Assembly: GCF_964355755.1 (NCBI RefSeq)
Contig: NC_092679.1
Coordinates: 21,352,432 to 21,416,431 of the forward strand
Source: Antedon mediterranea
Lineage: Eukaryota > Echinodermata > Crinoidea > Comatulida > Antedonidae
Length of the DNA stretch: 64,000 nucleotides
Reading direction: 5' to 3'
The notes under the pieces were generated by a model that was not told the origin of the DNA, did no database searches, and saw only the letters and a list, made by a program, of their open reading frames with translations. The position numbers and the translations under genes were made by a program. Shown here one piece after another: positions 41,586 through 63,947 of the stretch; positions within the stretch are counted from its first letter, which is position 1; each line of letters begins with the position of its first letter.

Positions 41586-41655
41586 ATGAAAGTGGAAATG
41601 TTGTATAGTACGCTGCTGCTGCTTTGGTTTTGCTGTACATCATGCTATGCCACAG
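41586..41655 (+). CDS. Mosaic gene exon 1: signal peptide
   Basis: ATG at 41,586 opens 23 codons with hydrophobic core LLLLWFCC and a likely cleavage after CYA. It ends ACAG|GTAAGA in phase 1. The same architecture starts the paralogue at 62,567 ([12 protein letters not shown]). Confidence 0.92.
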
Positions 41656-44600
41656 GTAAGATGTGCTCAATATTAAAAAGAGAAAGCAAATTATTAGTAC
41701 TTTATAACAATCCTGTTTTATTTTAATTTTTTGCCTTCTTTTAAATATTTTTTAAATCTCTGTTTATTATTGCTTTCTTTAAAGAAGCGTGTCACTTTTA
41801 TTTCAACATATTTTACCAGGGTGATCCATCCAGCCGAAGCTGATCATTAGGGACCCTCATAGATAACTACAATTAAAATGAGAAAAAAATATTGTTTATT
41901 TATTAATTTCAAAAACATTATTTTTATTACTTTTTAGTCAAGTATGTTCTGTATCGATCACGCAACAAAATTGATATAACCCCACTTAAATTTTAACTTT
42001 GTTTTGTTTTTAATTGATTTGTACTACTTAGTTTTGTTTGTTTGTTTTGTTTTTTCTTTGTATTTTATAATAATGATGGCGTTTGTTTGGGCTCATGCCT
42101 ATTACTTGCTCCTGGCAAGATGGAATTTAAACGTTATTATTATAATTATTGTCGACAGTGGTTTAACAGTAAAATAAGCCATATTTACTCTTCGCGTCAT
42201 TGGACTCAATTTCGTCGATTCTAGCTCCTTAGATTTTTTATCACTAACATGTTATATTTCAAGACGTCTCGAAGTCGAAATCGATTTTAGTGGCAGGCAA
42301 CTTGGGATAAATGACGTAAGGCATAATTTACGTAAGTCGTAGGTCATATCTAGATCGAAAGTTTTCGATTGGAGATAGACAACTATATTTCGCAATTATT
42401 AAAACAGAGACAACATTAAGTAGCGAGATTTTTATTTACTTCAAACAAATTGAACATAATTTAGAAAGTAAGTGGTTTGCGGTTTATGGGTCGTCCACTA
42501 ACTTGACAAATAGAAATATGACAATATTAGGACTTCCCAAATTGATTACATCATGAGAAATAAGTCTCCACAATGTAAACTTTTCAACATCTATTTTTGT
42601 TTATTTACAGGTGGTTATTGTTAAGTTAATACAATATGCAATCCGGGTTCTAAAAATGAACAAACAAATGAAAATGAAAAACTCACCAAGGGATTGTTCT
42701 TTTTGTGTATAAATATTTTAAAACGAGATAGATGATAATGATGATCATTGTCAAGTGTATAGAAAAATATAAGAAAATTAATGAAAAAAGGAGGTAGGCC
42801 TAATACGGAATTCCAAAATGTAAAAATGTTACTGATGAATTGTAAAGATATTTGGAATTAACAACATGTGTTAAATAATATGATTTTATGTAATGACAGG
42901 AGATAATATGAATGTGAATAAAATTGGTGTTTGCGTCACAAAAGAGGAAAAAAAAGTTAATGCAATATACCACATAACTGCTTTAATCTTGTACATTTTT
43001 TCTTGCTTAATTATTAGCAAACATTAGACTTGTGAATGGTGGCACTTACTATCAGGGACGAGTTGAACTATACGATAGCGGAGAATGGGGTACAGTATGT
43101 GATGATTACTGGGACATCAACGACGCTCAAGTTGTATGTAGACAATTAGGACTGGGGACAGCAGTCCAAGCACGAGGAGGAGCTTATTTTGGCCAAGGAA
43201 CTGGTCCGATTATACTCGATAATGTCAATTGTGTAGGATCAGAATCCTCTATCACAAGTTGTCCTCATCGTGGAATTAGGTCACATAATTGTGCACATAG
43301 TGAGGATGCTAGTGTCATTTGTGCAATAGGTACAGTATCAATTAATCAGATTTATATAGCAGCCGGTATCCATAAAGTAGTGTTCAGAGGCGCTTCTTGG
43401 CAAAGTTTCTTTGCACAAATGTGTTTTGAGACGTATTTCAAAAAAATTGACGTTTTCTAATGTAGGCCTGTCTATTGGTAGTGCATTTCATAACACTGTT
43501 AAAAAGTTAACTACTGTATTTTACAATGACTACAGTATTCCTGTAGGCCAGATGTAAGCTATATCTATGTGTATTATGAATGCGCGATGCACCAGTATGA
43601 ACTAAAATTAATCGATTAAAGATATATTGTCCCCCTCAACAATTTTTATTGTTGAATATCTCACATAATAGTTATTCACTTTGACCAAAAATTGAATCAA
43701 TAATTTAAATTATTTATCTGAAAAACTATAATTTAAAGGAAAAAATAGTCAAATGGGTTTTTGGTTAAATTTAACTGTTTATTTTGTCTTTTTACTAGTG
43801 TACCGGTAATCATTATTTTTGTTCGTTTTTTTCCCATGGAAGTAAATAACTTAAAAAAAACTGCAAAATGCCCTATTCAAAGTCTGCTTTTATAAATCTT
43901 TATTTTTCATGATTTTGGAGGACAATACATCTTTAAGCTTTCAGTTTACGTTAATGTTGTGAATACAGCAGTACGTTGTGTATTGTAATTGCATTTTGAC
44001 TGTGCTTGCTTTCCATAGATCATATACAAACAGATTTCCAGTCTGGCTTTGATGGTTGGACTCAAGAATATGGGGATGATTTTGATTGGTCACGCCACTC
44101 TGGTTCTACTTCATCGTCTAGCACCGGACCAACAAACGGACATTCAGGTTATGCAAGTAAGTTATAAGAATATTGTATGGTTGGCACGGCAAACACTAAA
44201 GTCGGGTTACAGTACATCATGTGAATACTTGTTTTATTGTCTTGTGTGGGTTCGTCCCACTTTTATTATGCTCTGTTATAAGTATAACAATAAATATTTA
44301 TACATGTGTGTACATTTAAATATTATTTTTAAACATATTGGTTTAGGTACCATAAATTGATATAGTTTACATTGTATATACATAAGATGATTGATTTTGA
44401 TGTTAAACTTCACATTTTCTTTATTTACATTTTTTTTAATACAATTAATTAAAATATATAAATCACAATAAAAAGATGATAAAAATTGATTAAAAACGGG
44501 ACAGTAGTTATTCTATTATGTTCGTGTTCGGGTAGAGAGGCTATAAACTCAGGGAGGAATATAAAATACCCTCCCTTTTAACTAAGACGAAAATGGATGA

Positions 44601-47600
44601 GATAAGATTCACCATGTCAATACTTTGAGAAAAACTAAGTAAAAAAAAGTTATAGTTGTTATAATCACTTCTTAATTTTTCGGCAAACATAGCTCTTGAT
44701 ATTAGAACAGCACAGTTTACTTTTGTTTTTCTTGTTTCCATACAAAGCTGATTATTATGTTTATATTGAAACATCATCTCCAAGAAGTTATGGAGATTCA
44801 GCTCGCCTTAGAAGTCCACCAATACCACAATGGCCAAGTGTAACCATATCATTTTACTATCATATGTACGGAGATACAATGGGAACACTCAACGTTTACA
44901 GAACATCAAACTCGGGTGACGAATTGCTATGGTCAAGAACTGGTAACAAAGGAAACTCGTGGCTTTACTCTGGTACAATACAATTTGCACACAATGGTTA
45001 TGGAGACAACTACATCGTATTCGAAGGCATTAGAGGAAGTTCATTTACTGGGGATATTGCTATTGATGATATTGACATTAATGGTAAGTAAAAACAATCA
45101 TCAACAAAATAAATAGGCCTAGGCATAAACATAAAAAAAAGTGGAGCAGCGCAGGACTGATACGTATTGTACACAATTTTTTAAACTATAAATTAATTAA
45201 TCTTTTTGGTATTTATTGAGACCATTATTCCTATTATATCATCACCGGTCCATTTTATAATAAATCATTATTATTATCATCATAATCGTCAGCATCGTCC
45301 GGCTGAATGTAAATGGGAGACTAGAGCAACAAAATGTCTCAAGTATGAGAGGAAAAAAGTAAAGAAACGTTAAAATAGGTTGATAGGTAAATTTAGTGGA
45401 AATGGGCAGGTTGTCTCCTCTTTACAGACGTTGTAAGCAATTGCTGTGACAGACGGCCGACATATTGTGCACATCATTCTGTACTTATTCGTAAAATGAT
45501 AGATATTGGTGTTAGAAGATCCATTATTCCCACCGTCTGCAGCTTTCTTACTAACCGTACTATCAACACCAAGCACGACAATGTAGTTTCTTCTATTGCC
45601 CAAACTACTTGCGGCGTCCCTCCAGGAATTAAATTAGGCCCCATTCTTTTCCTCATCCTGATTAATGATGCTTGTTTAGAAAGCTACAGACGGTGAAAAA
45701 CATTCTGAAGAAAAACAAAATGTTAGCAATTGAAATGGTCTAAACGAGGAAAAGAAACATTACATGGTATTTTCGTTTTAATATTTAAAATGCATGAAAG
45801 ATTATTTCATGTCTTAATATCTTTTACCAGTTTTTCATTGTGTTTACCCTAATTAAATTGTTCAAAAAGAGGTATTGCCGTACTTTATTATAGCTTATAC
45901 CTTCTCGCTTTTAATATCATAATACTTATCTCTCTTTTTATGCATGACGTATCAGAATATTTGTATCTATATAGCATGAACATTAAAGAAAAACTATTAG
46001 TTTTGATGCTCTTACAGATGATACACCCACCACTACCGAACCCACCACTACAAAACCCACCACTACAATACCAACCACTACAGATTATCACACTACAGCT
46101 ATATCATCAACAGGTAAGGATAGAAATCTCTCCTTTTTTTAAATTTTCGAACCAGATTAATTGTTTATTGAATACAGCGAGCTTTTGCATGCAACAAATA
46201 CCTATACCTAGTTTGCTCTCGGCGAATCTATTTGAACATTTTTAGATCTTAATGGTTATGTATTTGTTCACGTCATACAAATTAGATGGGTATAAGAATA
46301 CGCATGCACATAACAATTCAACACTTTTGACGCGCGCGAATAAAATCCGCATAGTACACAAACAGTAGGAACACCAACAAAAGTCTGTAAAATGAGGTAC
46401 CGTACTTTTAACTACAGGCTGTTGGTGTAGGCCTATTAATTGTATTCTTATTTAGATATTTCTTTCTATTGAATTTCTTCAAATTTATCTATATCTTTTA
46501 GCCTTTTTCCATCATAATAGTTTCAATACAATAGGTCGTGTTTTGTTTCTTCGTATACTTATGCTGTATTTAACTCATTTGTTTTTTAAAACAATGATTA
46601 CTTTATTAAGAACATTTAATATTATGTTTCTTTTTGCAACTACAATATTAATTAGCCAAACTTTACCTTCGGTCATTTTAACATTAGTTTCCACTTTGAT
46701 TAAAATATTATCTTATTTTGTGTATAATATTCTAATTAGTATTACGAAATCAACAGTCAAACAGTTTTTATTCAGTACGTTTAGTAAAAATTCGTTTTAC
46801 TGTAATAACATTTAACCAAAATATTAAACAACTATTGTAGGCCTATAGGTAATATGCAAACCCTGCAAAAATTAAAGAAAATTACTTTGGTACGCATGCG
46901 TTAACTTTTGGTGCGCCACTAAATAGAAATTGTCAACTAAATAGAAAATGATTGGATCAATTTTTGCAGTTAAACAATAATATACAATAGTACATCTCAT
47001 GACGTCATCATGGCGTTGATCATGATCACGAGTTTTGGTATAAAGATAAGATGACACTTACTCATTTCATCAACACCATCAACACCACTAATATGAAATC
47101 ATTCTCATCATCTATCTACCTATTATCCATTCATATCATCACCATATCTTCTTTAGATCTATAATCATCACCATAGAAGAGAGAAAGGAAACTCTATGAA
47201 GTGGGAGTGAAGAGAAAACAAATTAAATTAGATTATTAGTTTATGATTAGGATTAAATAACAGTAAAGTAAATTAATAAATAAGTTTTTATCCCGACAGC
47301 TCCTTTCCAACTGAACACAACGCAATTTCTTTGTGGAAATGAAACCCAAATCATAACATCGCCTGGATATCCAAAACAATATGAAGACAACCTGTACATC
47401 GAATGGACATTCACTACTCATGTTGGAAGTTTGTTCTCTGTTGAATTCTACGATTTTTATCTTGAGGGATGTTGCGATTATGTGACTATTTACAGTGACG
47501 GAGACATTATTGGTAGATTCGGTGGTTCCAGTACGCCACCAGTAATCATATCTACAAATAACTCAATAACAATTGTTTTCAGTACAGATGGTAGTGTTGT

Positions 47601-50600
47601 GGAGAAAGGATTTGAGGCCGAAGTATATGTGTACCCTGACGCTTCAGGTAGGTGTATCCATATTATAAAGTAGATACATTATTTTTCCATTGTGAATTAG
47701 ACTCGAATTATCATCCAGAATTAGATATATTTTTATTGAACTATAGGGAACATGTCCCAGAATTGTCTTTTAGGAAACACTCACCTAAAACCTATATTCA
47801 TCATTATGTTAAGTGAATAACATAATGATATCTATACAGCTATGTTATTTTGTAATTATGTCATCGATTGGATTATGTACGTAATAATTGTCAATATCAG
47901 TATGTTAACGTAACTTTTAGCTACTTAACTTAAGAAAAAGAAAAGGCCTAAAGCATTTAGAGGAGTTTCGTGGTGTGGATTTTTTTTATTTTATTTTTTT
48001 ATTTTTTATTTCTTTATTGCATCAATATAATAATAAATATATAAAAAAAACATAGTATAACACAGACCAAACAAGTTACTAAAATGTATCATAGTCCACA
48101 AATCAGTCTTTCAATGGCCATCATAGTACATCCAGTAACACAAACCAAACGGGGTTCACAATTTGCTTATCATAACTCAGTTTCTGATCATTCACCAATC
48201 ATTGAAAACTCCGTGGAAAGTAATGAAGTTTTTTGTGCGTTGTGTCCTGACTTTGGGGAGGGTGAACGATCTAACGCGTCGGAGCTGATGGTTGTGTGTG
48301 GGAGGTTTAGGTAAGAGAGAGTGTAATCTATGATCTATGGATGTTTTGTGCGTGCTAATCTTGATAATATTTTACTATCTGTATAATATTTGTTTAAACT
48401 CACAGATGGGTTTTGTTCTAATTTTAACGATGGCTATTCTGGTTGGACTGATTATTATGGTAACGATCTATGGATGAGATCCTCTGAACGATATGATGAT
48501 GACAACAACGATTTAGGAAACCGTTACTCAGGATCAGGTAAAATATCTAATATTGTTGTAAGAGTTTCACACTTCCCTGGTTCGATCAATATCAATACCT
48601 AGCCTAACAAGCTATTTTATTTTATGTTGTAAAGACATTCATTTCAATTGATATCTTATTGTTTCAGATGATTGTTACATTTATGTTGCAAACGAATATT
48701 ATGATAGTGGATACAAATATGGCTACCTTAAGAGTCCATATCTGCCAGATAGATGGAATGAAATGTGCCTTAGATTTTATTATTATATGAGTGGAAATTC
48801 AAATCAACAAATTTATGTATATCATTACTCTGACAACTACGGAGGATATAGAGTGTTCACTGAGTATGCTGATTATAGTCAAAGATGGAAGTCTGCAAGT
48901 GTTACTATCAACACTTTCAATAAATATAATTCTTACTTGAGGATAGACGGTAGAGTATATGGTTACACTTACGATACAGAGATAGTTGCTGTTGACGATA
49001 TTTATATCAGTGAGGGAGCATGTTCATATTATCCAGGTATGATTAGTTAATTCATGGACGAATGTATGAAATGTTATTATAATAGTGTGTAAACAATGAA
49101 TTCAAACAACACTAACATTCACGTAATTAAATAAGTAAATCTATATATTGTAGTATATAAGTATATTGATCAAAACGTCGAGAAACTCAACAGTTCTTTT
49201 CAGTTCTATTTATACACGTGGTGTACCATACACTTTCAACATAAATCTTTCTGATTGTAAATCTTTTTTTAACTAGATTTATCTTACATGATAAAAGTTT
49301 GAAGAGTGTTTTTAAAATGTTGTTTATTGATCATTAATGGAATCGAATTACTTTACAGTAAATTATATTTGTTATTTTCACTCAATTTATTTTTACATCT
49401 CTATAGATATACCCCTAGCTACAGCTATTGTTACTGAAGTTTGGGACAGCACAACCTGTAAGTTAAATTTTCTTGGATGTCATTATATTCAACAGCTATG
49501 ATATACACTAGGCAAACCAAGAATTATGTTCCTAAAACACTTACAAGGTGACAGTACACGTAAGAGCGAGCCGTTCAAATGCTGATAATAAAACGGGCTG
49601 CTCAGTTACGCACCTATATTTACTTTAAAATTGGTAAATAGCTTTTCAAAATGTTCTTAAATTCATTAATCTAATATTTAGGCCTACTTTACAGTAGATA
49701 TAATTGTCTTATTTTGAAAATTATCACTAAATTTGCAGTTGAAGATTTCACTGCAGAAGACTTTATCACAATAGGTGAGTTTAATTTTCTCTGATGTTTC
49801 GTCAAACGGTTATGATATAGATAGATATAAACAAAAACTCATTCCTAGATTAACTTTATAACGTAAGCGCGCGTGCAAATAATCGAATGCAACATATGAA
49901 ATGACCTTTAACCACGTGCGCATTTAACATTCTGTTTTAGTACTGTGAATACTTTTATTCTTTAATTTATTGATAATCTAATCAGATTTACTGTACAGTA
50001 AAATAGTTGAATATTTTCACAATTTACAGCTGAAGATTTCACTACAGAAGAGACGATGACTAAATTGGAGAGCACAACCGGTAAGTATAATTGTCTTTAT
50101 AATGTTGTCAAACACTTATTGCCATATAGGCGTAATCCATATGTTCGTAAAAACACTTCCCTAAATCAACTTTGCATAAAGTGATAATATTCAAATGCTG
50201 ATAATAACTAAATATACACGGTACTTATGCATGCATTAACTTTCTGTTAAATATGAAATCATACTCTTTGATTCATTGTTAATCCAATCAGTAGGCCTAC
50301 TTTATAGTAACATTTTATCCTAAAAATTATCACTAAATTTACATTTGTAGATATCAATGTAACAGACGAGACGATAAGCACAACCGGTAAGTATACTTAT
50401 CTTTATTTTGTTGTCGAACGACAATGATGCCTTACTATGACATATACCTAATAAAAAAACTCTAATTAACTTCACAGTATAAAGTTTAATCAGTAGGCCT
50501 AATTTATTGTAAAATAGTTGTTTTCTTCGTGAAAGTTATAACATTAAAAAAAACTTCTTTTGTTTAATTTTGTCATGTGAAACGGTTATGATACAGGCAT

Positions 50601-53600
50601 TCAAGCATGTTTTGTACTTTCTTAGATTAACATTACACTTATTAATAAAATTTGTTAGATGCCGTTTCAAAATGTTGTTTTTTATTACTAAATTATTACT
50701 AAATTTACAGTTGGTAATTATCAAAGTTGGTAAATAGACTTTTAAAATTAAGTTAATTTTAAAAGTTAAAAGAAAGTCAAAAGAAATTGATGATCACGTT
50801 AAATTCCATGTTATGTATTATTTTGTTTATGTTGAAATGAATTTTGAATAAATGACCTTTGGTCAACAAGAAAACCGCTAAAATATATGTTCTACTAAAA
50901 CCAAATTTGAAAATAAAATATTCCTATGACTAGAATCATAAAATAGTAATGGAACGGTAAGTTTAATTTTCTTAGATGTTATTTTCAACGGCTATGATAT
51001 AATGCATAATCAAAGAATCGTGTTCGTAAAACACTATTCGGAATATTATTTCTTTTTATAACTTTCTATGTACCTTTCGCTACAGATATTGTTACTGGAG
51101 AACGGGAGAGCACAACCGGTAAGTTGAATTTTATTTATTATTATTAAAACTTTAGTTTTGATATAGGCCTACTTGTCATCTTGACAATTTTAGGCTATAT
51201 ATCTTCATTTAAGATGTATTAGAATCATTTATGCAATATCTGATTATTTTATCTAGTTACGTTTAGTCCCGATGGTGGCTGTTTAGGTAATTGCGGTGGG
51301 TATGACTCAGTCCAAAACTGCTATTGTGATACGTATTGTGAAACTGCACTCGACTGTTGCTCAGACTATTTCTTGCTGTGTGCAAGTAAGTTAGATTGCT
51401 TAAGAGTTAAGTGATTACAAACGTCCCCACTCGGTATATTTACACATTATTCCACAATGTATCTGTTTGATTAACTTCACATTTAAAATAGTTGTTTCTC
51501 CTGGAAATTATTACAGTGATTTGTTTTTTTATATTTCCTCTTGTCTATAGATGAACCTTTAACTACAAATACGGTTACTGAATGGGATAGCACAACACGT
51601 AAGTTTAATACTTTCATTAATATTAAACGACTGTGATTTTGTGATATAGGCTTAATCCAAAAATTGCAAAACTCTTTCCTAGATTAATTAGAAGTTTAAG
51701 CAATAATACGTGAGAGGGTCGTTTAAATGTTGATAATAACGGAAATGGCCCTAAACGCACCCAACGATTTTCTGTTAAATTTATTATTTAAAGTTAAATA
51801 GCCTTTTAAATGCTGTTTCATATTTTTACATGAAAATTTTCTATACATTTGTTTCATATCTTCTTGTCTATTAGAAGCACCTTTCACTGTAACGGAATGG
51901 TTGGATAGCACAACCAGTAAGTCTTATTTTATTTTATGTCTTATTAAGCTATAAGACAAATTTACGTACGTACGTAAAACACTTTCCCAGATTAAGCTTA
52001 CACTTAATACAGTAAATATTTTTCCTAAATTTGTTGTTATAACCTCTTGTCTATAGGCCTAGATGTAACTTTAGCTACAGATGTTACTGGATGGGATAGC
52101 ACAACCGGTAAGTTTATTTTCTTTTATGTTTTGTTAAATAGTTTTAATACAATAGATTACTGTACGCCCTATAATGAATAAAAATGAAAAAAAAAATATT
52201 TACAAAAAAGATAATAATATTTCAGGATCTGAGGCAACAATGTACACCAAAACAGAAGATATTGTTTTAGTTAAATTATGTTAGCAACAATTTTAAGGAT
52301 TTGTAACATTTTTTTTAAAACTTGAATTGACTAATAAGTTGACAAGTTTTTTTTCAGCAACTCCTTTACCACCGAATATAAAACCATTTCTCTGTGGCAA
52401 CGAAACTCAAATCATAACATCGCCTGGATATCCTAACCAATATGAAAACAACTTAAACATCGAATGGACATTCACTACTCACGTCGAAAGTTTGCTCTCT
52501 GTTGAAATCTACGATTTCTATCTTGAGAACAGCTACGATTATGTGACTATTTACAGTGATGGAGACATGATTGGAAGATTTACTGGTTACAATACACCAC
52601 CGATATCGATATCTACCAGCAACACAGTAACTGTTGTTTTCAGTACAGATGGTAGTGTGGTATATAGAGGATTTCAAGCTAAGGTATCCGTTTACCCTGA
52701 AGCTACAGGTAGATATATACATTCATATTATAAATTTAGTGCCAAGTCTGTTTCCCTCTGTTTTTTTAACATTATGTTAATACGTGGGTAACATAATTAC
52801 ATCATTTAAGCATTGGTTTTATTTTATCGATTGAATCATGTATTGGAGTGGATTGGAGTACTATATATCGATTGTTAGCGTAACTAGAACTATTTTGTAT
52901 ACGAATGAAGTTGTTTCGTAGGTGCGGGTGTTTTTGCGTCTCATCAACATGTACAACATTTATCATTTGCCTAAATATTCATTTCATCTTTTAGATGGAT
53001 TTTGTTCTGATTTCAATGATGGATTTTCTGGCTGGACTCATTCTTATAGTAGTAGTCACAATCAATGGATGAGATCCTCTGAACGATATAATGACGACAG
53101 CGATCTAGGAAACCGTTACTCAGGATCAGGTAGTAATCAGAAAAATAGCTATTATTTATTTAGTCAATCAATACTAACAATATAATTATAATTATAATTT
53201 CATAAAATACGTCACGTTGTCAACAAATAGGTAGGCTGGCCTATTATATAATTATAGATTACGTAAGCCTATTATTAAACTAAACATGTCATTATAAGGT
53301 TTATAATAATTATAAGTAAATAGACAAAAACAGAAACAAAAGTATCATTAAAAACGTTATGAATGTTCATTCATTTGATGCCATTATCTTTTTCAGATGA
53401 TTACTACATTTATGTTGCAAATGAATATGGTCAAAGTGGATCCAGATATGGCTATCTTAACAGTCCAGATATACCAGACAGATGGAATGAAGCGTGTATT
53501 AGATTCTATTACTATATGAGTGGACATTCATATCAATACATTACAGTATATGACAACTACGGACATTCCGTTTTCTACGAATCCGATGATAACAGTCGAC

Positions 53601-56600
53601 AATGGAAGTCTGCAAATGGTACTATCAATACTGTCAGTAAATATAATTTATACCTGACAATAAGAGGTAGAGCATATGGTTACACATACAATACAGAGAT
53701 AGTTGCTGTTGACGATATTTACATCAGTGAGGGCGCATGCTCAGATTATCCAGGTATGATTACCGTAGTACGTATTAATCGACGAATGTGTGACTCACAT
53801 GATTTAATAATTAAATATACTTTTAACTTGATTGATTTTTTGAAAACAATGACTGCAGTCGCGTGCTCAAATTTGAGTTAGTGTTTACCGACCAACCGAC
53901 CAACCGACCAACCGACAGACATTAGTGAGCAGTAGAGTCAAGTTTACACGCGACTAAAATATTTAAATTCAGTTTTAAAATATTCTTGAATTCACCATTA
54001 ATCTCATCAGATGCCTACGGTACTTTACAGGAATATATTCTTTTGCTAAAAACCTAACTCTTTTTTTATATAGATGAACCTACCGAAGAGGTTACTGTAT
54101 GGGCGAGCACAACCGGTAGGTTTTATTTTGGTGGATGTCATTTCAACGGCTGTGATATACCGTAGGCATAATCCAAGAATCATTTCATAACACACTTCCT
54201 CGATTGCACTTTACACTTTACACTTTCTCAAAATGATCACTATATTTCTTAACTTCTTCTATATAGCTGAATATATGAATACTGAAGTATCGGAGAGCAC
54301 AACCGGTAAGTTTAATTGTCTTGGGTGTTATATCCAGCGGCTGTGATATACCGTAGGCCTAGTACAAATCATTTTCGTAAAACAGTTTCCTATATTACAC
54401 TTTCTGAATATGATAATATGACCTAATCCAAGAATCATGTAAAACACTTTCCTAGATTCCACTTTACATTTTCTGAAAACGATCACTAAATTCATTTTTA
54501 TAACCTCTTCTCTATAGATGTAGAAATCACTACTGAAGTATTGGATAGCACAACCGGTAAGTTTAATTTTTTTAATGTCATATGAGTGGCAATGATATAA
54601 TGCCTAAGACAAGATATTCTCTAAATTAACTTAAGAAGTGACACTATATAAGCGGGGTTAGGGTTACGATTAGGGTTGACCTTTTGCTTTTAAATTATAT
54701 CGTTGAGTTGGTAAATAGTTTAATACAGCAAGAATTGTTCTTTCCCAAAATATCTCACTAAATTCGATTTTTTACGTTTTTTCTATAGATATACCTACTA
54801 CAATACCCATCACAGCACATGAAATACCAACCACTACATATGATATACCAACCACTGAAGATGATATACCAACCACTAGATATGATATACCAACCACTGA
54901 AGATGATATACCAACCACTACATATGATATACCAACCCCTGAAGATGATATACCAACCACTGAAGATGATATACCAACCCCTGAAGATGATATACCAACC
55001 ACTAAAGATGCCACCACAAATGATATACCAACCACTGAAGATGCCACCACAGATGGTATACCAACCACTAAAGATGCCACCACAGATGATATACCAACAA
55101 CTAAAGACGATATATTCACAACATCCACCACTACAGGTACGGTTAATCAGGGAAGTTTGAAATTTCACTCTTCCCTGGGTTAATGAATGGGTTACCACAA
55201 ACGGTAAATAAGTCGAACAACACACATAAAAACATATACACAATTTTGATTAAAAATCATTTTTAACTTTTAACTTGATTTATTTAAATTAAGTTGGTAA
55301 ATAGATGTAAATAAAGATGTTGTTTAGTTTATCATTCGTCGGTAGGCATGAATTATCACTTAATTTAGCGTTTTACATTTTGTCTATAGATATACGTTTT
55401 GCTACAGATCCGGTTACTGAATTATGGGATAGCACAGCAGGTAAAGTTTTAATTTTGTTTAATGTCATATTCATCTGATATAATAAGTAGGCGTAAACTT
55501 AGAATTATGTTGTTCGGAAAACATTTTCCTCGATTAACTAGTACAGTTTATAAGAGATTAAGAAATCAGACTGTTTTTTGTTACAGCCCCTGATTGGATA
55601 CAAACTGGTAAGTGTTACTACATACTAATTCTTAACTTTTAAAAGTTTTAAATCATTTTCTTAGATTGCACCTCAAAACTAAAAATGTCAATCTTCTTAT
55701 GTTTGGTTAGTTACAAAGCTAAAGAAGCATTAAAGGGCTGCTTTTCACTAAGGTGAATATATTTGCGAGATTCAAACATTCCTGAGTTCTGATTGGTGGT
55801 GCAATTTTTCACGTCTCAACAATAGATGGAAATAGAATACGCATGCGCATTAGTCAATGTTAAAGATTAGTGCGAATAAATTCGCCTGTGGAAAACCTCT
55901 TTTATTGTAGTCTATTCTTTGATCACTGGTTAGTTTTTTTTGTAATGAAATGTTCGACTTACTCTCGTTTTAGTCTATTTTTTTTAAAGAATAATTACGG
56001 TATGCTGTCTAAACATTGAATCATTTAATTTCTAAATTTTTATTCAGATGTTGTATGTAGTAATTCATACATGACAGTTTACATTGATGCGGCTTCACTT
56101 GGAAGTAACAGCACAGCACACTTTATCGACCCGACGTGTGGCATGATGGGATACACGTATCGTAATGGCATGTATTGGCTGTATTTATATACTAGATACG
56201 ATCAATGTCAAACAACAATAAAGGTAACTGACGATATATAAATATTATAATAAACAGTGAAATTACCACGTGACTAATGAACGTCATTTTAATTGGTTCT
56301 TTTTTTGTTTTTTTCTTTTATCTGATTGTATAATCCTGGATAAAGATGTTATTAAATAAATAAATAATAATAAATGTTGTGTACATTTAAAGCCACTTTT
56401 CTTCACATTTGTAAACAATTTAATTGAAAATTAATTTGTGTAATCCTGGATAAATAAATAAATATAATAAATAATAATAAATGTTGTGTACATTTAAAAC
56501 TAATGACTTTTCTTCACATTTATAAACATTTAAAAATGAATTTGCTTTCCTATTTTCCGTCTTTTTTTCTATCACCATGTCAAATCATTTTTATACTAGT

Positions 56601-58460
56601 TTACATTGGCGTCAACAACTTACCAAAACCAGGTAATTGTATCAAACGAAGGAGATTCCAAGATTTACAGGGATGATGACAGTCGCATAACCATCGAGTG
56701 TGAACTAAAAAACACCGGACGCTCATCGGTTAGTTTTAACCCAGTTGGAACCGAAAATAACTTCCTAAAACACGAACATGACAACTTTACATTCGCAATG
56801 GAGCTATATACCGATAGCAGTTATTCTACTTCATACCCGAGTTGGCAGTATCCGATTGAACTGATTCTTGGAAGTAAAGTATTTGTTGGGGCGAGTGTAA
56901 AAACGTTTAATAAAGATATGGTTGTGTTTGTCGATTCTTGCAAAGCTACACCGAATCCAGACCCTGATGCTAAGCCTAGCTACGATTTAATAAAAAACAG
57001 GTAATAACAACCAGACTATAAGGAATAAATTGACAATTAGCGTGGTCCTATAACTGGATATAACTGGTTCTACATGGGTATGACTGGTTCTACCTGGCTA
57101 TAGCAAGATATACACTAAGCCAGTTATTTCATTTACTTCGATTCCGTCCCAATACCCAAAAACGTCTATAAGGCAAGTTGCAGCCAAACAATGCATATTG
57201 ATCAAACATTCCAATAATTATCGACCTATAGTTGCTCTTTTGTTTCATAATTTGTTTGTGTTGTGATTTTTGTTTTAAAGAAACACTTTCTTATTAGTGA
57301 GAGAATATTTCAAACTATCTAGGAAAATCCCTAAAAATTATGTTGTAAACAGGCTAGATCAACATTACAAAAACTAAACATTGTGGACAAAACAATTTAT
57401 CATATAACTACCATATAAAACAAAGCTTAAATTTGTACATTTTGGCGCCATATAAAATATTATCTACCGTGTAACAGATATGGTAACAAGATCTCCATTA
57501 ACTTGAACACATAACTACTGAAAAGGTCTGACTGGTTTTGATAGCAAAATGTTTCCATTATTCGGAGTCGTTGAACTTATATCTAAATTTAAAGAAACGT
57601 TTCTATTTCTTAAGACAACTAAATACATCCTTTTTATCTTCTGAAGTTGCGGTGTAGACTCGACGGTTAGTTTCGACGGAAAATCAACTTTTGGAGATTA
57701 TTCCTTGGCGTTCTTTTCGTTTGAAACTTTTGGCTTCAGCGGCGAATACTCAACGGTATGAATCATTACAAATGCTAATAATAATGAATTATACCAAGTA
57801 ATATTTTATGAACAGGAACTTAATTGTCATAACTTTTAAGCCAAATAAGTATTCAATCTAGTGCAACAGGCCTAATACTAACTACAAATATAAAAAAATG
57901 CCCACTAAAATCGGTAAATTTCTATAAACTTTATCTTTCAATTTAAATAACAGGTGTTTGTTCATTGTCAATTGTCCATCTGCAATGATAGTGACTGGAG
58001 ATGCTCTAGGAACTGTAAACAACGAAAACGCCGTGACGTCAATCTACCAAATAAGTTGTCTAACAGCATTTCGATTGAACTTGGACCTTTGGTGCTAAAA
58101 AGACCAGACGACAATCCCAACATTATACGCAAGACTGAAGGTACTTTTGGAGTCTCTTAGTGAGCTCATTATATTCTGTAGTCATTTGAATGTGCATTCA
58201 CGGGAACTTGAAATGGAAAGAGATGACAAGAGATGTTTTATTCTTTAATTTTGTATAATTTAATCTGTAATTTATCGAATATTTCTTGTGTTTTGTTAAA
58301 TTAATTAAAAAATTAATTACAAATAAATCTGTACTTTTTCAGAGTCAATATCGAAGTGATTGATGGTTCCAAATCAGCCTGGTTGTCTTGGAAATATGAT
58401 ACCACTTTCTGGCTTGAGAAAACAAAGCAATTCTTACCAGAAACTGGAAAACCACTTTGA
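41586..58460 (+). CDS. Secreted SRCR-MAM-CUB-SMB-ZP mosaic protein, 31 exons
   Basis: The modular extracellular protein resembles DMBT1-type SRCR/CUB/ZP proteins but adds MAM and somatomedin-B domains. The order is signal peptide, SRCR, MAM1, Thr/Pro linker, CUB1, MAM2, five stalk microexons, SMB, three stalk microexons, CUB2, MAM3, three stalk microexons, a 21-bp-repeat exon, two small exons, ZP-N/ZP-C, RKRR, short tail. The exons sum to 4,551 nt (1,516 residues plus stop at 58,359) with no internal stop. Every intron up to the ZP domain is phase 1. SRCR proteins of this type bind microbes or ligands, and ZP modules polymerise; such a role in defence or mucus is inferred. No transmembrane or GPI signal is seen. 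The listed end allows for an alternative last-exon acceptor with stop at 58,460. A polyadenylation signal AATAAA is at 58,942. Confidence 0.9.
41656..43017 (+). other. Intron 1 of the mosaic gene
   Basis: This 1.36-kb AT-rich intron has an inverted LINE-tail-like repeat at 41,812-41,875, matching 920-1,010. Nothing else was recognised. Confidence 0.75.
41812..41875 (-). repeat. Dispersed repeat, LINE 3'-tail-like (inverted copy)
   Basis: On the minus strand it reads GAGGGTCCCTAATGATCAGC, then TGGATGGATCACCCTGGTAA, as at 920-1,010 on the plus strand. Confidence 0.5.
43018..43329 (+). CDS. Mosaic gene exon 2: SRCR domain (group A)
   Basis: One exon encodes a whole scavenger receptor cysteine-rich domain: [56 protein letters not shown]. 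Six cysteines occur at VC, VCRQ, VNC, SC, HNC and IC. The extra cysteine after RQLG that marks group B is absent. The acceptor is ATTATTAG and the donor is ATAG|GTACAG, phase 1 on both sides. Confidence 0.96.
44019..44156 (+). CDS. Mosaic gene exon 3: MAM1, first part
   Basis: It encodes [20 protein letters not shown], then [11 protein letters not shown] and [10 protein letters not shown], a clear MAM start. The usual first cysteine is missing (Thr-Asp in its place). The acceptor is TTTCCATAG and the donor is CAA|GTAAGT, phase 1 on both sides. Confidence 0.93.
44748..45083 (+). CDS. Mosaic gene exon 4: MAM1, second part
   Basis: It encodes [19 protein letters not shown], the core [20 protein letters not shown] and the ending [11 protein letters not shown]. 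No cysteine occurs in this MAM domain, so its normal disulfides are absent. Phase 1 on both sides. Confidence 0.94.
45462..45697 (+). pseudogene. Non-LTR retrotransposon reverse transcriptase fragment
   Basis: The frame reads [16 protein letters not shown], then a [20 protein letters not shown] block typical of reverse transcriptase domain 4 to 5 in LINEs. It stops abruptly and lacks the endonuclease and the FADD-type catalytic motif. It is a dead fragment in a MAM1/linker intron. Confidence 0.75.
46018..46113 (+). CDS. Mosaic gene exon 5: Thr/Pro-rich linker
   Basis: It encodes [20 protein letters not shown] followed by [12 protein letters not shown]. The PTTT units come from a 15-bp repeat and are likely O-glycosylation sites. 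The acceptor is CTTACAG and the donor is ACAG|GTAAGG, phase 1 on both sides. Confidence 0.9.
46114..47299 (+). other. Intron 5 of the mosaic gene
   Basis: This is AT-rich. A 90-codon hydrophobic open frame at 46,543-46,815 is explained by T-rich composition. Nothing functional was recognised. Confidence 0.7.
47300..47647 (+). CDS. Mosaic gene exon 6: CUB1 domain
   Basis: It encodes [19 protein letters not shown], then [27 protein letters not shown] and VFSTDGSV, a full CUB domain of 115 residues. Canonical Cys2 and Cys4 are replaced (NLYIEW, RFGGSS) while Cys1 and a CC pair remain. The domain also occurs at 52,358. Phase 1 on both sides. Confidence 0.95.
48406..48537 (+). CDS. Mosaic gene exon 7: MAM2, first part
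   Basis: It encodes [19 protein letters not shown] to NRYSGS. The [11 protein letters not shown] core is the canonical MAM opening with its first cysteine. The acceptor is AACTCACAG and the donor is TCAG|GTAAAA, phase 1 on both sides. Confidence 0.93.
48668..49036 (+). CDS. Mosaic gene exon 8: MAM2, second part
   Basis: It encodes [29 protein letters not shown] and [16 protein letters not shown]. Cysteines at MCLRF and GACS match MAM; an extra one occurs at DDCYIY. About 118-122 residues align with the MAM3 exon at 53,397. Phase 1 on both sides. Confidence 0.94.
49407..49457 (+). CDS. Stalk microexon 1
   Basis: This 51-nt exon encodes [17 protein letters not shown]. The acceptor is CTCTATAG and the donor is CCT|GTAAGT. 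It is the first of the tandem E-x-T…VTE-x-W-DSTT cassettes, phase 1 on both sides. Confidence 0.85.
49739..49774 (+). CDS. Stalk microexon 2
   Basis: This 36-nt exon encodes [12 protein letters not shown]. The acceptor is ATTTGCAG and the donor is ATAG|GTGAGT, phase 1 on both sides. It lacks the DSTT end. Confidence 0.78.
   Translation: MKISLQKTLSQ
50030..50080 (+). CDS. Stalk microexon 3
   Basis: This 51-nt exon encodes [17 protein letters not shown]. It starts like microexon 2 and ends in the family's ESTT. The acceptor is ATTTACAG and the donor is CCG|GTAAGT. Confidence 0.83.
50351..50386 (+). CDS. Stalk microexon 4
   Basis: This 36-nt exon encodes [12 protein letters not shown]. The acceptor is ATTTGTAG and the donor is CCG|GTAAGT, phase 1 on both sides. 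Confidence 0.8.
51086..51118 (+). CDS. Stalk microexon 5
   Basis: This 33-nt exon encodes [11 protein letters not shown]. The acceptor is CGCTACAG and the donor is CCG|GTAAGT, phase 1 on both sides. Confidence 0.8.
51257..51385 (+). CDS. Somatomedin-B-like domain exon
   Basis: It encodes a compact eight-cysteine module: [26 protein letters not shown]. The spacing C-x3-C…C-x-C-x3-C-x5-CC-x5-C matches somatomedin B (as in vitronectin). It sits inside the stalk array. The acceptor is ATCTAG and the donor is CAA|GTAAGT, phase 1 on both sides. Confidence 0.9.
51551..51598 (+). CDS. Stalk microexon 6
   Basis: This 48-nt exon encodes [16 protein letters not shown]. It differs by a few residues from the paralogue's exon at 63,900 ([15 protein letters not shown]). 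The acceptor is GTCTATAG and the donor is CAC|GTAAGT. Confidence 0.88.
51875..51916 (+). CDS. Stalk microexon 7
   Basis: This 42-nt exon encodes [14 protein letters not shown]. The acceptor is TCTATTAG and the donor is CCA|GTAAGT, phase 1 on both sides. Confidence 0.85.
52057..52107 (+). CDS. Stalk microexon 8
   Basis: This 51-nt exon encodes [17 protein letters not shown]. The acceptor is GTCTATAG and the donor is CCG|GTAAGT, phase 1 on both sides. Confidence 0.85.
52226..52258 (+). pseudogene. Dead stalk microexon (donor GT changed to AT)
   Basis: After a good TATTTCAG, 33 nt encode [11 protein letters not shown] in phase 1, then ATATTGTTTTA. The paralogue's live exon at 62,741-62,770 ends MYTTE and continues GTATTATTTTA. 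Exon, phase and intron start all align, so this is a homologous copy whose donor GT has become AT. Skipping it leaves the frame intact. Confidence 0.75.
52358..52708 (+). CDS. Mosaic gene exon: CUB2 domain
   Basis: It encodes [19 protein letters not shown] to VSVYPEAT. It is close to CUB1, with whole blocks identical ([25 protein letters not shown]). Only the first cysteine of the CUB set remains. The acceptor is TTTTTCAG and the donor is ACAG|GTAGAT, phase 1 on both sides. Confidence 0.95.
52995..53129 (+). CDS. Mosaic gene exon: MAM3, first part
   Basis: It encodes [20 protein letters not shown] to NRYSGS, a near copy of the exon at 48,406. The acceptor is CATCTTTTAG and the donor is TCAG|GTAGTA. 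Confidence 0.93.
53397..53753 (+). CDS. Mosaic gene exon: MAM3, second part
   Basis: It encodes [29 protein letters not shown] and [17 protein letters not shown]. It is a near copy of 48,668-49,036, so CUB plus MAM was duplicated as a block. Phase 1 on both sides. Confidence 0.94.
53853..53958. repeat. ACCGACCA-type short dispersed element (copy 1)
   Basis: It starts GCAGTCGCGTG and ends CACGCGACTAAA, flanking AATTTGAGTTAGTGTTTACC and an ACCGACCA run. The same layout recurs at 60,951 and 62,001. It is non-coding. Confidence 0.7.
54074..54115 (+). CDS. Stalk microexon 9
   Basis: This 42-nt exon encodes [14 protein letters not shown]. The acceptor is TTATATAG and the donor is CCG|GTAGGT, phase 1 on both sides. 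Confidence 0.83.
54267..54305 (+). CDS. Stalk microexon 10
   Basis: This 39-nt exon encodes [13 protein letters not shown]. The acceptor is CTATATAG and the donor is CCG|GTAAGT, phase 1 on both sides. Confidence 0.82.
54518..54556 (+). CDS. Stalk microexon 11
   Basis: This 39-nt exon encodes [13 protein letters not shown]. The acceptor is TCTCTATAG and the donor is CCG|GTAAGT, phase 1 on both sides. Confidence 0.84.
54789..55136 (+). CDS. Coding minisatellite exon (DIPTT repeat)
   Basis: This 348-nt exon encodes about 13 tandem seven-residue units D-I-P-T-T-x-(D/Y), such as DIPTTED and DIPTTTY. The last units are interspersed with ATTD, which makes an 11-residue higher-order unit. The DNA unit is 21 bp (GATATACCAACCACTGAAGAT). 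Thr/Pro density suggests O-glycosylation, and Asp/Glu make it acidic. The length is likely to vary between alleles. The acceptor is TCTATAG and the donor is ACAG|GTACGG, phase 1 on both sides. Confidence 0.9.
55390..55440 (+). CDS. Stalk microexon 12
   Basis: This 51-nt exon encodes [17 protein letters not shown], a clear family member. The acceptor is GTCTATAG and the donor is CAG|GTAAAG, phase 1 on both sides. Confidence 0.85.
55587..55607 (+). CDS. 21-nt microexon before the ZP domain
   Basis: It encodes only APDWIQT. The acceptor TTTTTTGTTACAG and the donor CTG|GTAAGT are both strong, and phase 1 fits the neighbours. Skipping it would also keep the frame, so inclusion is plausible but not certain. 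Confidence 0.65.
55731..55904. mobile_element. Short inverted-repeat element before the ZP exons
   Basis: The left end TTTTCACTAAGGTGAATATA is inverted, with divergence, at the right end AATAAATTCGCCTGTGGAAA. It is non-coding and intronic. Confidence 0.5.
56048..56223 (+). CDS. Mosaic gene exon: ZP-N, first part
   Basis: It encodes [19 protein letters not shown] and HFIDPTCGM, the hallmark start of a zona pellucida domain (C1 at VVCSN, C2 at DPTCG, C3 at YDQCQ). The acceptor is TATTCAG. The donor AAG|GTAACT is in phase 0, the first non-phase-1 intron of the gene. Confidence 0.93.
56325..56537. repeat. Imperfect direct duplication, about 115-bp period
   Basis: TAATCCTGGATAAA, AATAATAATAAATGTTGTGT and ACATTTAAA…CTTTTCTTCACATTT occur twice in order (56,325-56,425 and 56,440-56,537) within the ZP intron. 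Confidence 0.8.
56600..57000 (+). CDS. Mosaic gene exon: ZP-N end and ZP-C start
   Basis: It encodes [28 protein letters not shown] (C4), [27 protein letters not shown] (C5) and SYDLIKN. The acceptor is TATACTAG and the donor is ACAG|GTAATA (phase 2). Confidence 0.95.
57647..57755 (+). CDS. Mosaic gene exon: ZP-C middle
   Basis: It completes a Ser codon and encodes [16 protein letters not shown] to FSGEYST, with the conserved CGVDSTV. The acceptor is CTTCTGAAG and the donor is ACG|GTATGA (phase 0). Confidence 0.93.
57954..58140 (+). CDS. Mosaic gene exon: ZP-C end with furin site
   Basis: It encodes [20 protein letters not shown] and CKQRKRRDV: the last ZP cysteines followed by the furin consensus RKRR. 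After it, [10 protein letters not shown] looks like the external hydrophobic patch that keeps ZP precursors from polymerising early. The acceptor is AATAACAG and the donor is AAG|GTACTT (phase 1). Confidence 0.93.
58343..58460 (+). CDS. Mosaic gene last coding exon, tandem acceptor
   Basis: After TTTTTCAG the in-phase reading is ESISK then stop at 58,359. Using the AG two bases further (CAGAG|TC) gives [20 protein letters not shown] onwards to a stop at 58,460. Neither tail has a membrane anchor. If the intron is retained, translation stops at 58,160. Which tail is real cannot be decided from sequence. Confidence 0.55.
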
Positions 58461-62566: not shown

Positions 62567-62627
62567 ATGACAGCGGAAATGTTTTACAGTACGGTTCTTT
62601 GGCTCTGCTGTGCGTGCTACGCTACAG
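62567..62627 (+). CDS. Second gene exon 1: signal peptide
   Basis: ATG at 62,567 opens 20 codons plus one base, with [12 protein letters not shown] as hydrophobic core and cleavage region. The donor is ACAG|GTAAGA, phase 1, as in the first gene. An ATG a few codons in (AEMFYS) is a possible alternative start. Confidence 0.9.
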
Positions 62628-63947
62628 GTAAGATTCGCTATCTGAGACCTATGTTTCAAGTTGTTGTTGCGTTGTATTGTTCTAGATGTTCCTAACAGAA
62701 TGTATCATGTTATATCTAAATGTCAATTATTCTATTTCAGCGTATTGGACACCAATGTACACAACAGAAGGTATTATTTTATTTAAATGTTGTTCTCACA
62801 TCATCATCATCAAAACGTAATTGAGAACGATATTACAAAATACGACATACTATATATTACAAATTACGACATACTATATAGGCTTATTACAAATAATATT
62901 AAAAAATAGGTAAATCTTATCTACTGTAAAATAATTGTTTCTTCTTGAAAAATTAATGATTGTATCTTGTCTGTATCGCAACAGGTAGTAGGCATACAGT
63001 TACTGTTAGCACAAGCGGTAAGTGATAAGCTCTGTCTACACATCAAACTTTATATGACAAAAAAATGTGATGTGCCCATATATGGATATGATGATGTCAT
63101 ATCACTACCATATTTGGACATACCACTACCATGGGTTTACAGTAAATTCATTAGAGCAAAAAGAAGAACAACTTTTATCTTTTACATTTGTAATGCTTGT
63201 ACATTAGGAAACATCAGACTGGTCAATGGTGGCAATTATTCCCAGGGACGAGTTGAGGTATACGATAGCGGAGAATGGGGTACGGTATGTGATGATAATT
63301 GGGGTATCAACGACGCGCAAGTTGTATGTCGACAACTAAGACTAGGACCTGCCATCGAAGCCCCACGATATGCTCATTTTGGTGAAGGGACTGGTCCAAT
63401 TATACTGGATGATGTTCAGTGTGAAGGATGGGAATCCTCTATCACAAGATGTCCTCATAATGGAATCAGGTCACACAATTGTGGGCATAGTGAGGACGCT
63501 AGTGTTATTTGTGCAATTGCAGGTAGAGTATGCCGTAGCTAGTGTAGGGAAACGTGTTTTTTTTTAAATAAATAATTTCAATAGAAAATAAAATGAAATT
63601 ACAGGAGCCTGTCAATCGTTAACGTATATTTTTTTGTTAAATTGGGAAAAAAATATCACATATATCTCTATTATTATTACGATGTTCTGTGATTTCAGCA
63701 CAAATCAAGCAACCTCCGTATGATCTATTAACAATGTTTCAGACTGTTTTAGAATTATTTCCTTACCTAGCAATAATGGCAATTTATTATAATTTCACAT
63801 GGAGAATTATTATATTGGTCATTATAGGCTATAACAGTATATTATTTTGTTCATTACTTACGTAAAATACAGTAGTTTTTTTTATAAATTCTTGTATAGA
63901 TGAACCTTTCACTACAGATACAGTTACTGAACGGAGTAGCACAACCG
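62567..63947 (+). CDS. Second SRCR mosaic gene, 5' part (tandem paralogue)
   Basis: Five exons join in phase 1: signal peptide 62567-62627, microexons 62741-62770 and 62985-63017, SRCR 63208-63522, microexon 63900-63947. The window ends in the next intron. The SRCR exon and the signal peptide are close to those of the gene at 41,586. However, here two small exons precede SRCR, and a stalk microexon, not MAM, follows it. A secreted recognition protein of the same type is inferred; later domains are unknown. Confidence 0.88.
62741..62770 (+). CDS. Second gene exon 2: microexon
   Basis: This 30-nt exon encodes [10 protein letters not shown]. The acceptor is CTATTTCAG and the donor is GAAG|GTATTA. 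It is the live homologue of the dead exon at 52,226. Confidence 0.75.
62985..63017 (+). CDS. Second gene exon 3: stalk microexon
   Basis: This 33-nt exon encodes [11 protein letters not shown]. The acceptor is GCAACAG and the donor is AGCG|GTAAGT. A family-A element begins nine bases after the donor starts. Confidence 0.7.
63027..63133. mobile_element. Family-A element fragment (copy 10)
   Basis: It starts AAGCTCTGTCTACACATCAA and keeps GTGATGTGCCCATATATGGA and the ACCATATTTGG motif. The right half is missing. It occupies most of the intron before the SRCR exon. Confidence 0.75.
63208..63522 (+). CDS. Second gene exon 4: SRCR domain
   Basis: It encodes [56 protein letters not shown] and VICAIA: a six-cysteine group A SRCR domain very close to that at 43,018. 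The acceptor is ACATTAG and the donor is GCAG|GTAGAG, phase 1 on both sides. Confidence 0.95.
63523..63899 (+). other. Intron of the second SRCR gene
   Basis: This is AT-rich. A TGATTTCAG acceptor-like site at 63,699 opens a short frame but has no donor. No further exon is supported. Confidence 0.6.
63900..63947 (+). CDS. Second gene exon 5: stalk microexon
   Basis: This 48-nt exon encodes [16 protein letters not shown]. The acceptor is TTGTATAG and the donor is CCG|GTAAGT. It closely resembles microexon 6 of the first gene (51,551). Confidence 0.86.

Follow-up and report, generated by a model that had tools for sequence, protein, structure and literature searches.

Tandemly copied stalk microexons in a crinoid ZP-family gene and their probable role in setting stalk length

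The first of eight related ZP genes standing in a row in the feather star Antedon mediterranea (gene 1) encodes a surface protein of the egg-coat type and carries a series of very short exons between its domain exons. The locus raises the question whether these units are coding exons, how they multiplied, and whether the length of the encoded stalks follows from the number of exon copies or from the choice of exons during splicing. The analysis covers the window, i.e., the whole stretch of 64,000 nucleotides, together with the downstream paralogues and genome-wide searches.

Results

The predicted gene 1 protein has the order signal peptide-SRCR-MAM-CUB-MAM-stalk-SMB-stalk-CUB-MAM-stalk-ZP (Table 1). 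SRCR, CUB and ZP domains were all found by domain search, with one SRCR exon. From SRCR to the exon ZP1, 26/26 exons are open and bounded by AG and GT, and all 25 exons from SRCR through the last exon before the ZP module are of phase 1-1.

Table 1. Features of gene 1 and of the beginning of gene 2 in the window
Feature	Position	Strand	Description
Signal-peptide exon, gene 1	41586..41655	+	23 residues; related signal-peptide exons at 4 other places of the run
SRCR exon	43018..43329	+	PF00530, E 3e-32
MAM no. 1, two exons	44019..45083 (44019-44156, 44748-45083)	+	domain search, open frame
MUCa, short Pro/Thr-rich exon	46018..46113	+	15-nt repeat
CUB no. 1 exon	47300..47647	+	domain search, open frame
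MAM no. 2, two exons	48406..49036 (48406-48537, 48668-49036)	+	domain search
m1	49407..49457	+	51 nt, (D)+16 residues
m2	49739..49774	+	36 nt, (F)+11 residues
m3	50030..50080	+	51 nt, (A)+16 residues
m4	50351..50386	+	36 nt, (D)+11 residues
Probable relic unit, intron part only	50559..50600	+	E 3e-4 to 7e-3, intron-only models
Probable relic unit, donor and downstream intron retained	50955..51020	+	E 9e-7 to 3e-9, intron-only models
m5	51086..51118	+	33 nt, (D)+10 residues
Somatomedin B (SMB) exon	51257..51385	+	PF01033, E 2e-7
m6	51551..51598	+	48 nt, (N)+15 residues
m7	51875..51916	+	42 nt, (Q)+13 residues
m8	52057..52107	+	51 nt, (S)+16 residues
CUB no. 2 exon	52358..52708	+	domain search, open frame
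MAM no. 3, two exons	52995..53753 (52995-53129, 53397-53753)	+	domain search
m9	54074..54115	+	42 nt, (D)+13 residues
m10	54267..54305	+	39 nt, (A)+12 residues
m11	54518..54556	+	39 nt, (D)+12 residues
Mucin-like exon	54789..55136	+	21-nt and 33-nt minisatellite, DIPTTED type
m12	55390..55440	+	51 nt, (D)+16 residues
m13	55587..55607	+	21 nt, (A)PDWIQT; like peptide PEWIQT within a 72-nt exon of P0181
ZP module	56048..58359 (56048-56223, 56600-57000, 57647-57755, 57954-58140, 58343-58359, stop)	+	PF00100, E 2.7e-29; PF23344, E 2.3e-7
Signal-peptide exon, gene 2 (adjoining paralogue)	62567..62627	+	predicted
Possible divergent gene 2 unit	62985..63017	+	33 nt, (G)+10 residues; E 0.0015-0.005, elsewhere 0.03
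Gene 2 unit, near family consensus	63900..63947	+	48 nt, (D)+15 residues

An earlier note on this DNA had described twelve phase 1-1 microexons of 33-51 nt with one common motif. All twelve are present within 49407-55440, encode variants of this motif and form a single open frame with the domain exons; their lengths (33, 36, 36, 39, 39, 42, 42, 48, 51, 51, 51 and 51 nt) are without exception multiples of three. We read the units as genuine coding exons, all belonging to gene 1. The note had also proposed a repeat unit of roughly 300 bp. The distances inside the groups are 182-332 bp, with 735 bp where the two relics sit, and the array is split into groups of 5, 3, 3 and 1 by the SMB, CUB-MAM and mucin exons. 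The encoded stalks A-C consist to 0.33-0.40 of Thr and Ser and to 0.17-0.28 of Asp and Glu and contain no Cys. The 21-nt exon m13 and the gene 2 unit near the family consensus were absent from the earlier note.

That an exon was repeatedly duplicated together with its intron, as had been suggested, is supported by intron homology, by a shifted repeat in gene 2 and by the unit tree. In a held-out test, in which the flanks of each unit were searched with a model built from the flanks of the other units, exon and donor left out, the downstream flanks were refound in place for 11 of the 12 units (six at E <= 0.011, five at E 0.16-5; m5 was missed). Only four of the twelve upstream flanks were refound, all weakly. 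The likeness claimed for the flanking introns holds for the downstream side, where the introns are homologous, and hardly for the upstream side. Allowing up to three mismatches AAAACACTTTCCTAGATTAA is found at 7 sites versus 0.03 expected. The motif GGCTATGATATA (up to two mismatches) is found at 14 sites versus 7.7 expected and is weak on its own because 3 of 100 shuffles reach this count. In gene 2 a 440-bp stretch repeats at 82.5% identity with a shift of 250-274 bp, and here the exon-plus-intron duplication is seen directly. In the unit tree m2, m3 and m4 are sisters within one array, and the gene 2 units g2c and g2d likewise. The two relics would be dead units, of which the upstream one appears to have lost exon and donor and the downstream one its exon.

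When all units are pooled the exons are more similar to each other than the introns are, both in gene 1 (0.67 versus 0.54 and 0.57) and in genes 2-3 (0.79 versus 0.61 and 0.52). This excess is absent in m2-m4 (exon 0.63, upstream 0.83, downstream 0.61) and in g2c/g2d (exon 0.96, upstream 1.00, downstream 0.96). RNA pairing between docking and selector sequences of the Dscam kind seems unlikely: the repeated intron boxes lie on the same strand, and by eye no regular unit-to-unit pairing was seen among the 25 inverted repeats listed of 34.

With up to three mismatches the donor motif AGCACAACCGGTAAGT occurs at 14 sites of the window versus 0.34 expected, a count reached by 0/100 shuffles; ten of these sites are microexon donors, two lie in the next gene and two are unrelated, the donors of m2 and m12 being too divergent to match. 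Most microexons were said to end with ACAACCG before GTAAGT, and indeed ACAACCG is present in seven of the twelve, followed by GTAAGT in six of these seven. Genome-wide, the exact donor 16-mer occurs seven times, six times in 49407-55440 and once in the next gene, and with up to one mismatch 14/17 occurrences fall inside the ZP gene run; at two mismatches there is no genome-wide excess (100 sites among the matches listed versus 120 for the reversed control). GTAAGT donors are found in 9/12 microexons and 3/17 other exons of gene 1 (p=0.006, which is optimistic because the microexon copies are kin) and in 5/6 microexons and 3/9 other exons of gene 2. The exon end AGCACAAC is near-invariant across the twelve units and one gene 2 unit; further units of genes 2 and 3 have AGAACAAC, ACCACAAC or ACCAGAAC instead. 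Over the three final codons of the units pS is 0.165 versus 0.49 further upstream, and AGCACAAC might, as a weak inference from the sequence, be an exonic enhancer.

With an HMM we count 19 intact units, twelve in gene 1, six in gene 2 and one in gene 3, so that in this one assembly the unit number varies among the paralogues (12, at least 6 and 1). The annotated Antedon mediterranea proteins P0181 and P0046 map downstream on the assembly, P0181 with 691/691 residues placed exactly and P0046 with 929/1092. Both match the present genome and are therefore neighbours within the same ZP run, ruling out that they belong to a different crinoid. The mapped part of P0046, which is the gene 2 protein, joins 6/6 motif exons, namely four consecutive units and two more. 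No gene 2 isoform was found among 120 of 381 protein matches, and a single gene 2 protein is among the matches listed. A DNA search with one unit gave ten matches, all in genes 1-3; as 9 of the 19 known units escaped this search, diverged copies elsewhere could be missed. One diverged unit was found by HMM in a paralogue 2.8 Mb away. In the predicted structure of P0046 the four units at residues 447-513 have a pLDDT of about 30 and no secondary structure, a low value which is not specific to the stalk because the whole model is poor (8 sequences, mean pLDDT 50.5, 540/1092 residues below 50).

Discussion

We consider it probable that the duplicated stalk exons are mostly constitutive and that their number sets the length of the stalk, as in the hinge of IGHG3. 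The array would go back to one linker exon, about 48 nt long and following a MAM domain, which in genes 1 and 2 was copied in place many times along with the intron downstream of it. Gain or loss of a unit would alter the extracellular stalk by 11-17 residues and would be harmless to the frame because each exon is symmetric (1-1). The stalks, rich in Thr and Ser and acidic, are probably unstructured, are likely to be O-glycosylated and may serve as spacers between binding domains. Most exons would be spliced in constitutively and stalk length would be set by copy number, through birth and decay of exons and probably through alleles.

On this reading the locus is an unusually rich case of stalk length evolving through exon copying, with three neighbouring paralogues that hold 19 intact units, 1-12 each, and two probable relics. 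Younger and older copies occur together in one genome, which makes it possible to date directly how exons arise and decay and how length changes without a shift of frame. The locus also allows stalk-length variation between the surface proteins of individual echinoderms to be tested.

It is rather unlikely that the microexons are cassettes of which different subsets are skipped in different cells, so that one gene yields many stalk lengths. Exons shorter than about 50 nt are easily skipped, all twelve are symmetric, and the annotated isoforms P0138 and P0152 of Anneissia, a crinoid relative, differ by one entire MAM cassette and at the N-terminus. Moreover 11/12 units contain an in-phase AG (unscored as splice sites); CTACAG, for example, is found 18 nt into m1, m3 and m12 and 24 nt into m8, and the acceptor of m5 is situated where several other units carry this internal in-phase CTACAG. 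However, phase 1-1 exons are the rule in extracellular mosaic proteins, and since all internal exons ahead of the ZP module, the domain exons included, are 1-1, the neutral frame of the microexons does not speak for combinatorial splicing. No short linker exon distinguishes the Anneissia isoforms, the microexon donors are strong, and the gene 2 protein, with its six joined motif exons, has no isoform among the matches examined. The six joined exons of the gene 2 protein and the GTAAGT donors, as indirect evidence, lean towards constitutive inclusion. Less likely still is a diversification of length in three layers, in which combinatorial exon use, with extra steps from in-phase internal acceptors, would be joined by variation of copy number and of minisatellites. 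If true, one crinoid ZP-family gene would give a ladder of stalk lengths, by cell or by animal, and a length-diversifying system would lie within a candidate recognition gene cluster.

We regard as improbable that gene 1 is a decaying copy and that the divergence of its units reflects relaxed constraint. Gene 1 could nevertheless be drifting because the transmembrane segment kept in genes 2-8 is lost there: a stop precedes the shortened transmembrane exon, and past this stop the cytoplasmic tail can still be read. In the variable codons of the units (-9 to -4) pN is 0.54 and not below the pS of 0.49, and a gene 1 protein was not found among the protein matches searched (600-2611 aa; best 120 of 931, 14/14 and best 120 of 381). 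Against decay, the exons from SRCR to ZP1 have stayed open with intact AG/GT ends, every unit has kept a length divisible by three, and the segment with the ZP module at its end shares 78% identity with P0181 across 327 residues; a secreted ZP protein can still be functional. A non-coding tandem repeat with frames open by chance is rejected as hardly credible: repeats with intron likeness do exist, but each of the twelve units has an open frame and a length divisible by three, identity is higher among the pooled exons than among the introns, and the annotated gene 2 protein joins such exons.

Among the titles listed from the open-licence literature (tandem stalk or linker exons; echinoderm or crinoid SRCR/ZP genes) none concerned gene 1. 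The earlier note had named no system built in this way in SRCR/ZP proteins; named systems of this kind do exist, namely the IGHG3 hinge, the variant stem exons of CD44, the SRCR-interspersed domains (SIDs) of DMBT1 and the schistosome micro-exon genes (MEGs). By analogy the gene 1 array seems to resemble the hinge exons of IGHG3 more than a wholly new system, with short symmetric exons duplicated in tandem along with their introns. The human IGHG3 hinge is of the Cys/Pro type, whereas gene 1 has three separate stalks which are Cys-free, acidic and Thr-rich. IGHG3 has 2 to 5 hinge exons per allele, corresponding to 32, 47, 62 or 77 aa with 15 aa added per exon, and short duplicated hinge exons fix the spacer length there as well (PMC8674132); it is an antibody gene with 2-5 copies, and gene 1 a ZP/MAM/CUB gene with 12.

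The SIDs of DMBT1, itself an SRCR/CUB/ZP protein, are Ser/Thr-rich spacers of 20-24 aa between domains and vary in germline copy number as SRCR-SID units (PMC3100851, PMC5435793). Gene 1 likewise has these three domains and Ser/Thr-rich spacers between domains. In DMBT1 the SIDs alternate with SRCR domains, whereas in gene 1 several stalk exons follow one another after MAM or SMB and, unlike the SRCR-SID units, were copied without a binding domain; several SRCR domains separated by SIDs were not found in gene 1 with its one SRCR exon. CD44 shares a run of exons encoding a variable extracellular stem (PMC8699317); its stem exons are alternatively spliced, and those of gene 1 are tandem duplicates of one unit. 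The MEGs, according to a review, are genes for secreted or surface proteins with many short symmetric exons, which for the most part do not exceed 36 bp and undergo differential splicing (PMC8293314). Short symmetric exons are common to both, but only 3/12 microexons of gene 1 are <=36 nt, large domain exons dominate and the gene 1 protein is large and modular.

Architecture of gene 1

The twelve related stalk microexons (m1 to m12) of the ZP-family gene 1 are a real, well-preserved and unusually large multiplication of stalk exons. All twelve were confirmed at the positions at which the earlier note had placed them, and each is 33-51 nt long, divisible by three and of phase 1-1. The tandem array described there stands insofar as every exon is present, but the exons form four groups (5, 3, 3 and 1) with other exons in between. 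Gene 1, whose exons were assigned in this analysis from the sequence, encodes on the forward strand in this order a signal peptide, SRCR, MAM, a Pro/Thr exon, CUB, MAM, stalk A, somatomedin B, stalk B, CUB, MAM, stalk C and ZP, and its spliced frame is open for 1492 residues counted from the SRCR. The window belongs to a 25-Mb sequence of a 354-Mb assembly comprising 18 sequences. In the protein searches the gene 1 protein was absent from the best 120 of 931 matches, from all 14 matches and from the best 120 of 381 matches.

In gene 1 the stop codon comes before a truncated transmembrane exon, and a cytoplasmic-tail peptide of 12 residues remains readable 3' of the stop. Genes 2-8, the paralogues following downstream, keep the transmembrane exon, the copy in gene 4 having a stop in its tail. 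The gene 1 product may be secreted, in contrast to its neighbours. A stretch of the intron 3' of m8 resembles exon 2 of gene 2, which is 30 nt long and lies at about 62741-62770; judged by eye, the stretch has lost its donor.

Features in window coordinates
Feature	Coordinates	Strand	Composition	Location or remark
Gene 1 signal peptide	41586-41655	+		
Stalk A of gene 1			m1-m5	between MAM and somatomedin B
Stalk B of gene 1			m6-m8	between somatomedin B and CUB
Stalk C of gene 1			m9-m11, mucin-like exon, m12, 21-nt m13	between MAM and ZP
First exonless place	50559-50600			putative dead unit
Second exonless place	50955-51020			putative dead unit
Stretch in intron 3' of m8	52218-52282			like gene 2 second exon
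Gene 1 stop	58357-58359			
Region of the stop and the shortened transmembrane exon	58343-58467			
Interspersed repeat	63027-63132, 14509-14612, 17348-17421, 27414-27484, 31052-31159	both		short, 84-89% identical
Second interspersed repeat	53849-53959, 60959-61013, 62012-62113			with ACCGACCA run
ORF	45397-45696	+		reverse transcriptase-like
ORF	60096-60440	-		reverse transcriptase-like
Spectrin-repeat exons	about 2563-13907	-		by eye

Use of the microexons and constraint on the stalk

Two annotated Antedon mediterranea proteins were placed downstream of the window by exact chains, P0181 from a paralogue with 691/691 residues and P0046, the gene 2 product, with 929/1092, the remainder being unplaced and the corresponding DNA partly N. 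P0046 contains the four consecutive units (copies of the microexon) at 71.6-72.6 kb, the unit at 77075-77122 and a motif-bearing 75-nt exon (78363-78438), the numbering of the window being carried on beyond its end. In the mapped part the unit HMM marks six places at E <= 0.1, and the protein includes every one of them; two gene 2 candidates near the 5' end (62985-63017 and 63900-63947) lie outside that part and are neutral as to inclusion. No isoform of P0046 was found among the best 120 of 381 matches listed; an isoform is on record for another Antedon gene (P0042).

We favour a reading in which the stalk is a spacer, constitutively spliced, the length of which would be set by exon copy number, and a minisatellite exon with 21- and 33-nt repeats could serve as a second length device. 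The nearest working likeness is the IGHG3 hinge (PMC8674132). Combinatorial skipping of the microexons, giving splicing diversity for which CD44 would be the model (PMC8699317), is a less probable alternative. Symmetric phase is common to all 25 exons from the SRCR up to the ZP module and hence not special to the microexons, and in the one isoform pair compared from the crinoid relative Anneissia a whole MAM domain is dropped and the N-terminus differs, with no change of a short linker. On present evidence we consider splicing diversity less likely than fixed inclusion. DMBT1 with its SIDs is a distant architectural cousin of gene 1, which does not follow the DMBT1 rule of multiple SRCR-SID (PMC3100851, PMC5435793); nor do the microexons follow the MEG exon-length rule (PMC8293314).

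Pooled identity is higher in the exons than in the adjoining introns, both in gene 1 (0.67 vs 0.54 and 0.57) and in genes 2-3 (0.79 vs 0.61 and 0.52), but the m2-m4 subset runs opposite (upstream intron 0.83, exon 0.63), and in the young gene 2 pair g2c/g2d every part is 0.96-1.00 identical. Over 13 units, pN (0.54) is not lower than pS (0.49) in codons -9 to -4, and in the last three codons the silent sites are conserved too (pS 0.165). This pattern would fit a stalk that keeps its length, frame and end while its sequence drifts. GTAAGT donors are found at 9/12 microexons vs 3/17 other exons of gene 1 and at 5/6 vs 3/9 in gene 2. For the four-unit stretch of P0046 (residues 447-513, between MAM domains) AlphaFold predicts no secondary structure, with pLDDT values near 30; this is weak evidence because the model is poor throughout (8 sequences, mean pLDDT 50.5, 540/1092 residues under 50).

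Origin and spread of the units

Chance does not account for the repeats, since the donor-spanning 16-mer with <=3 mismatches occurs at 14 sites in the window vs 0.34 expected (10 at gene 1 microexons, 2 in gene 2, 2 unrelated) and its exact form is confined genome-wide to genes 1 and 2 (six copies among gene 1 microexons, one in gene 2). With one mismatch allowed 14/17 genome sites lie inside the ZP gene run, and allowing two yields no more sites genome-wide than the reversed control (100 vs 120, among the matches listed).

Duplication of an exon-plus-intron unit, as proposed in the earlier note, is borne out by many unit-to-unit BLAST matches inside gene 1 that extend into the downstream intron. 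The likeness of the flanking introns was examined by a leave-one-out approach, in which exon and donor were removed and the held-out flank was sought with models made from flanks. It held for the downstream flank, which was re-found in place 11 times out of 12 (six at E <= 0.011, five at E 0.16-5), but upstream in 4/12 and weakly. In 12/12 runs the downstream models also matched both the first (E 3e-4 to 7e-3) and the second exonless place (E 9e-7 to 3e-9), which both lie in the intron, 699 nt long, that separates m4 from m5 and which we read as probable dead units. In gene 2 the duplicated exon with its intron can be seen directly, 71912-72347 and 72186-72597 (numbered on from the window) being 82.5% identical over 440 bp.

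In a tree of 19 units, with bootstrap not settled and 10/16 inner branches open, m2-m3-m4 and g2c-g2d each cluster from a single array, whereas the pair g2f-g3a spans genes 2 and 3. Support is 81/94 for m10-m11 and 83/80 for m9 with g2f-g3a, the remaining groupings being unsettled. Several units share an in-phase internal CTACAG, 18 nt inside m1, m3 and m12, and since its position is the present start of m5, an acceptor shift looks like one way in which units may have shortened.

Eight consecutive ZP genes span about 120 kb. They stand in tandem and are mostly of (MAM)-CUB-MAM-ZP type; genes 1 and 2 at the head carry additional SRCR, SMB and further CUB-MAM blocks. Intact units number 12 in gene 1, six in gene 2 (not counting the motif-bearing exon of 75 nt and a weak candidate) and one in gene 3, and the unit HMM found no match better than E 0.5 in genes 4-8. 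A whole-genome DNA search with one unit gave 10 places, all within genes 1-3, at a sensitivity (10/19 known units recovered) that diverged copies elsewhere could escape. One diverged unit (E 5.5e-9; 63 nt as read from the alignment) lies between MAM and ZP in a paralogue at a distance of 2.8 Mb. The simplest history would be a single linker exon behind MAM, later multiplied in genes 1 and 2.

Other elements in the window

One copy of the first interspersed repeat starts directly 3' of a gene 2 microexon donor. The two ORFs resemble, by eye, LINE-type reverse transcriptase fragments. The spectrin-repeat exons include a calponin-homology stretch and, again by eye, probably belong to a beta-spectrin gene.
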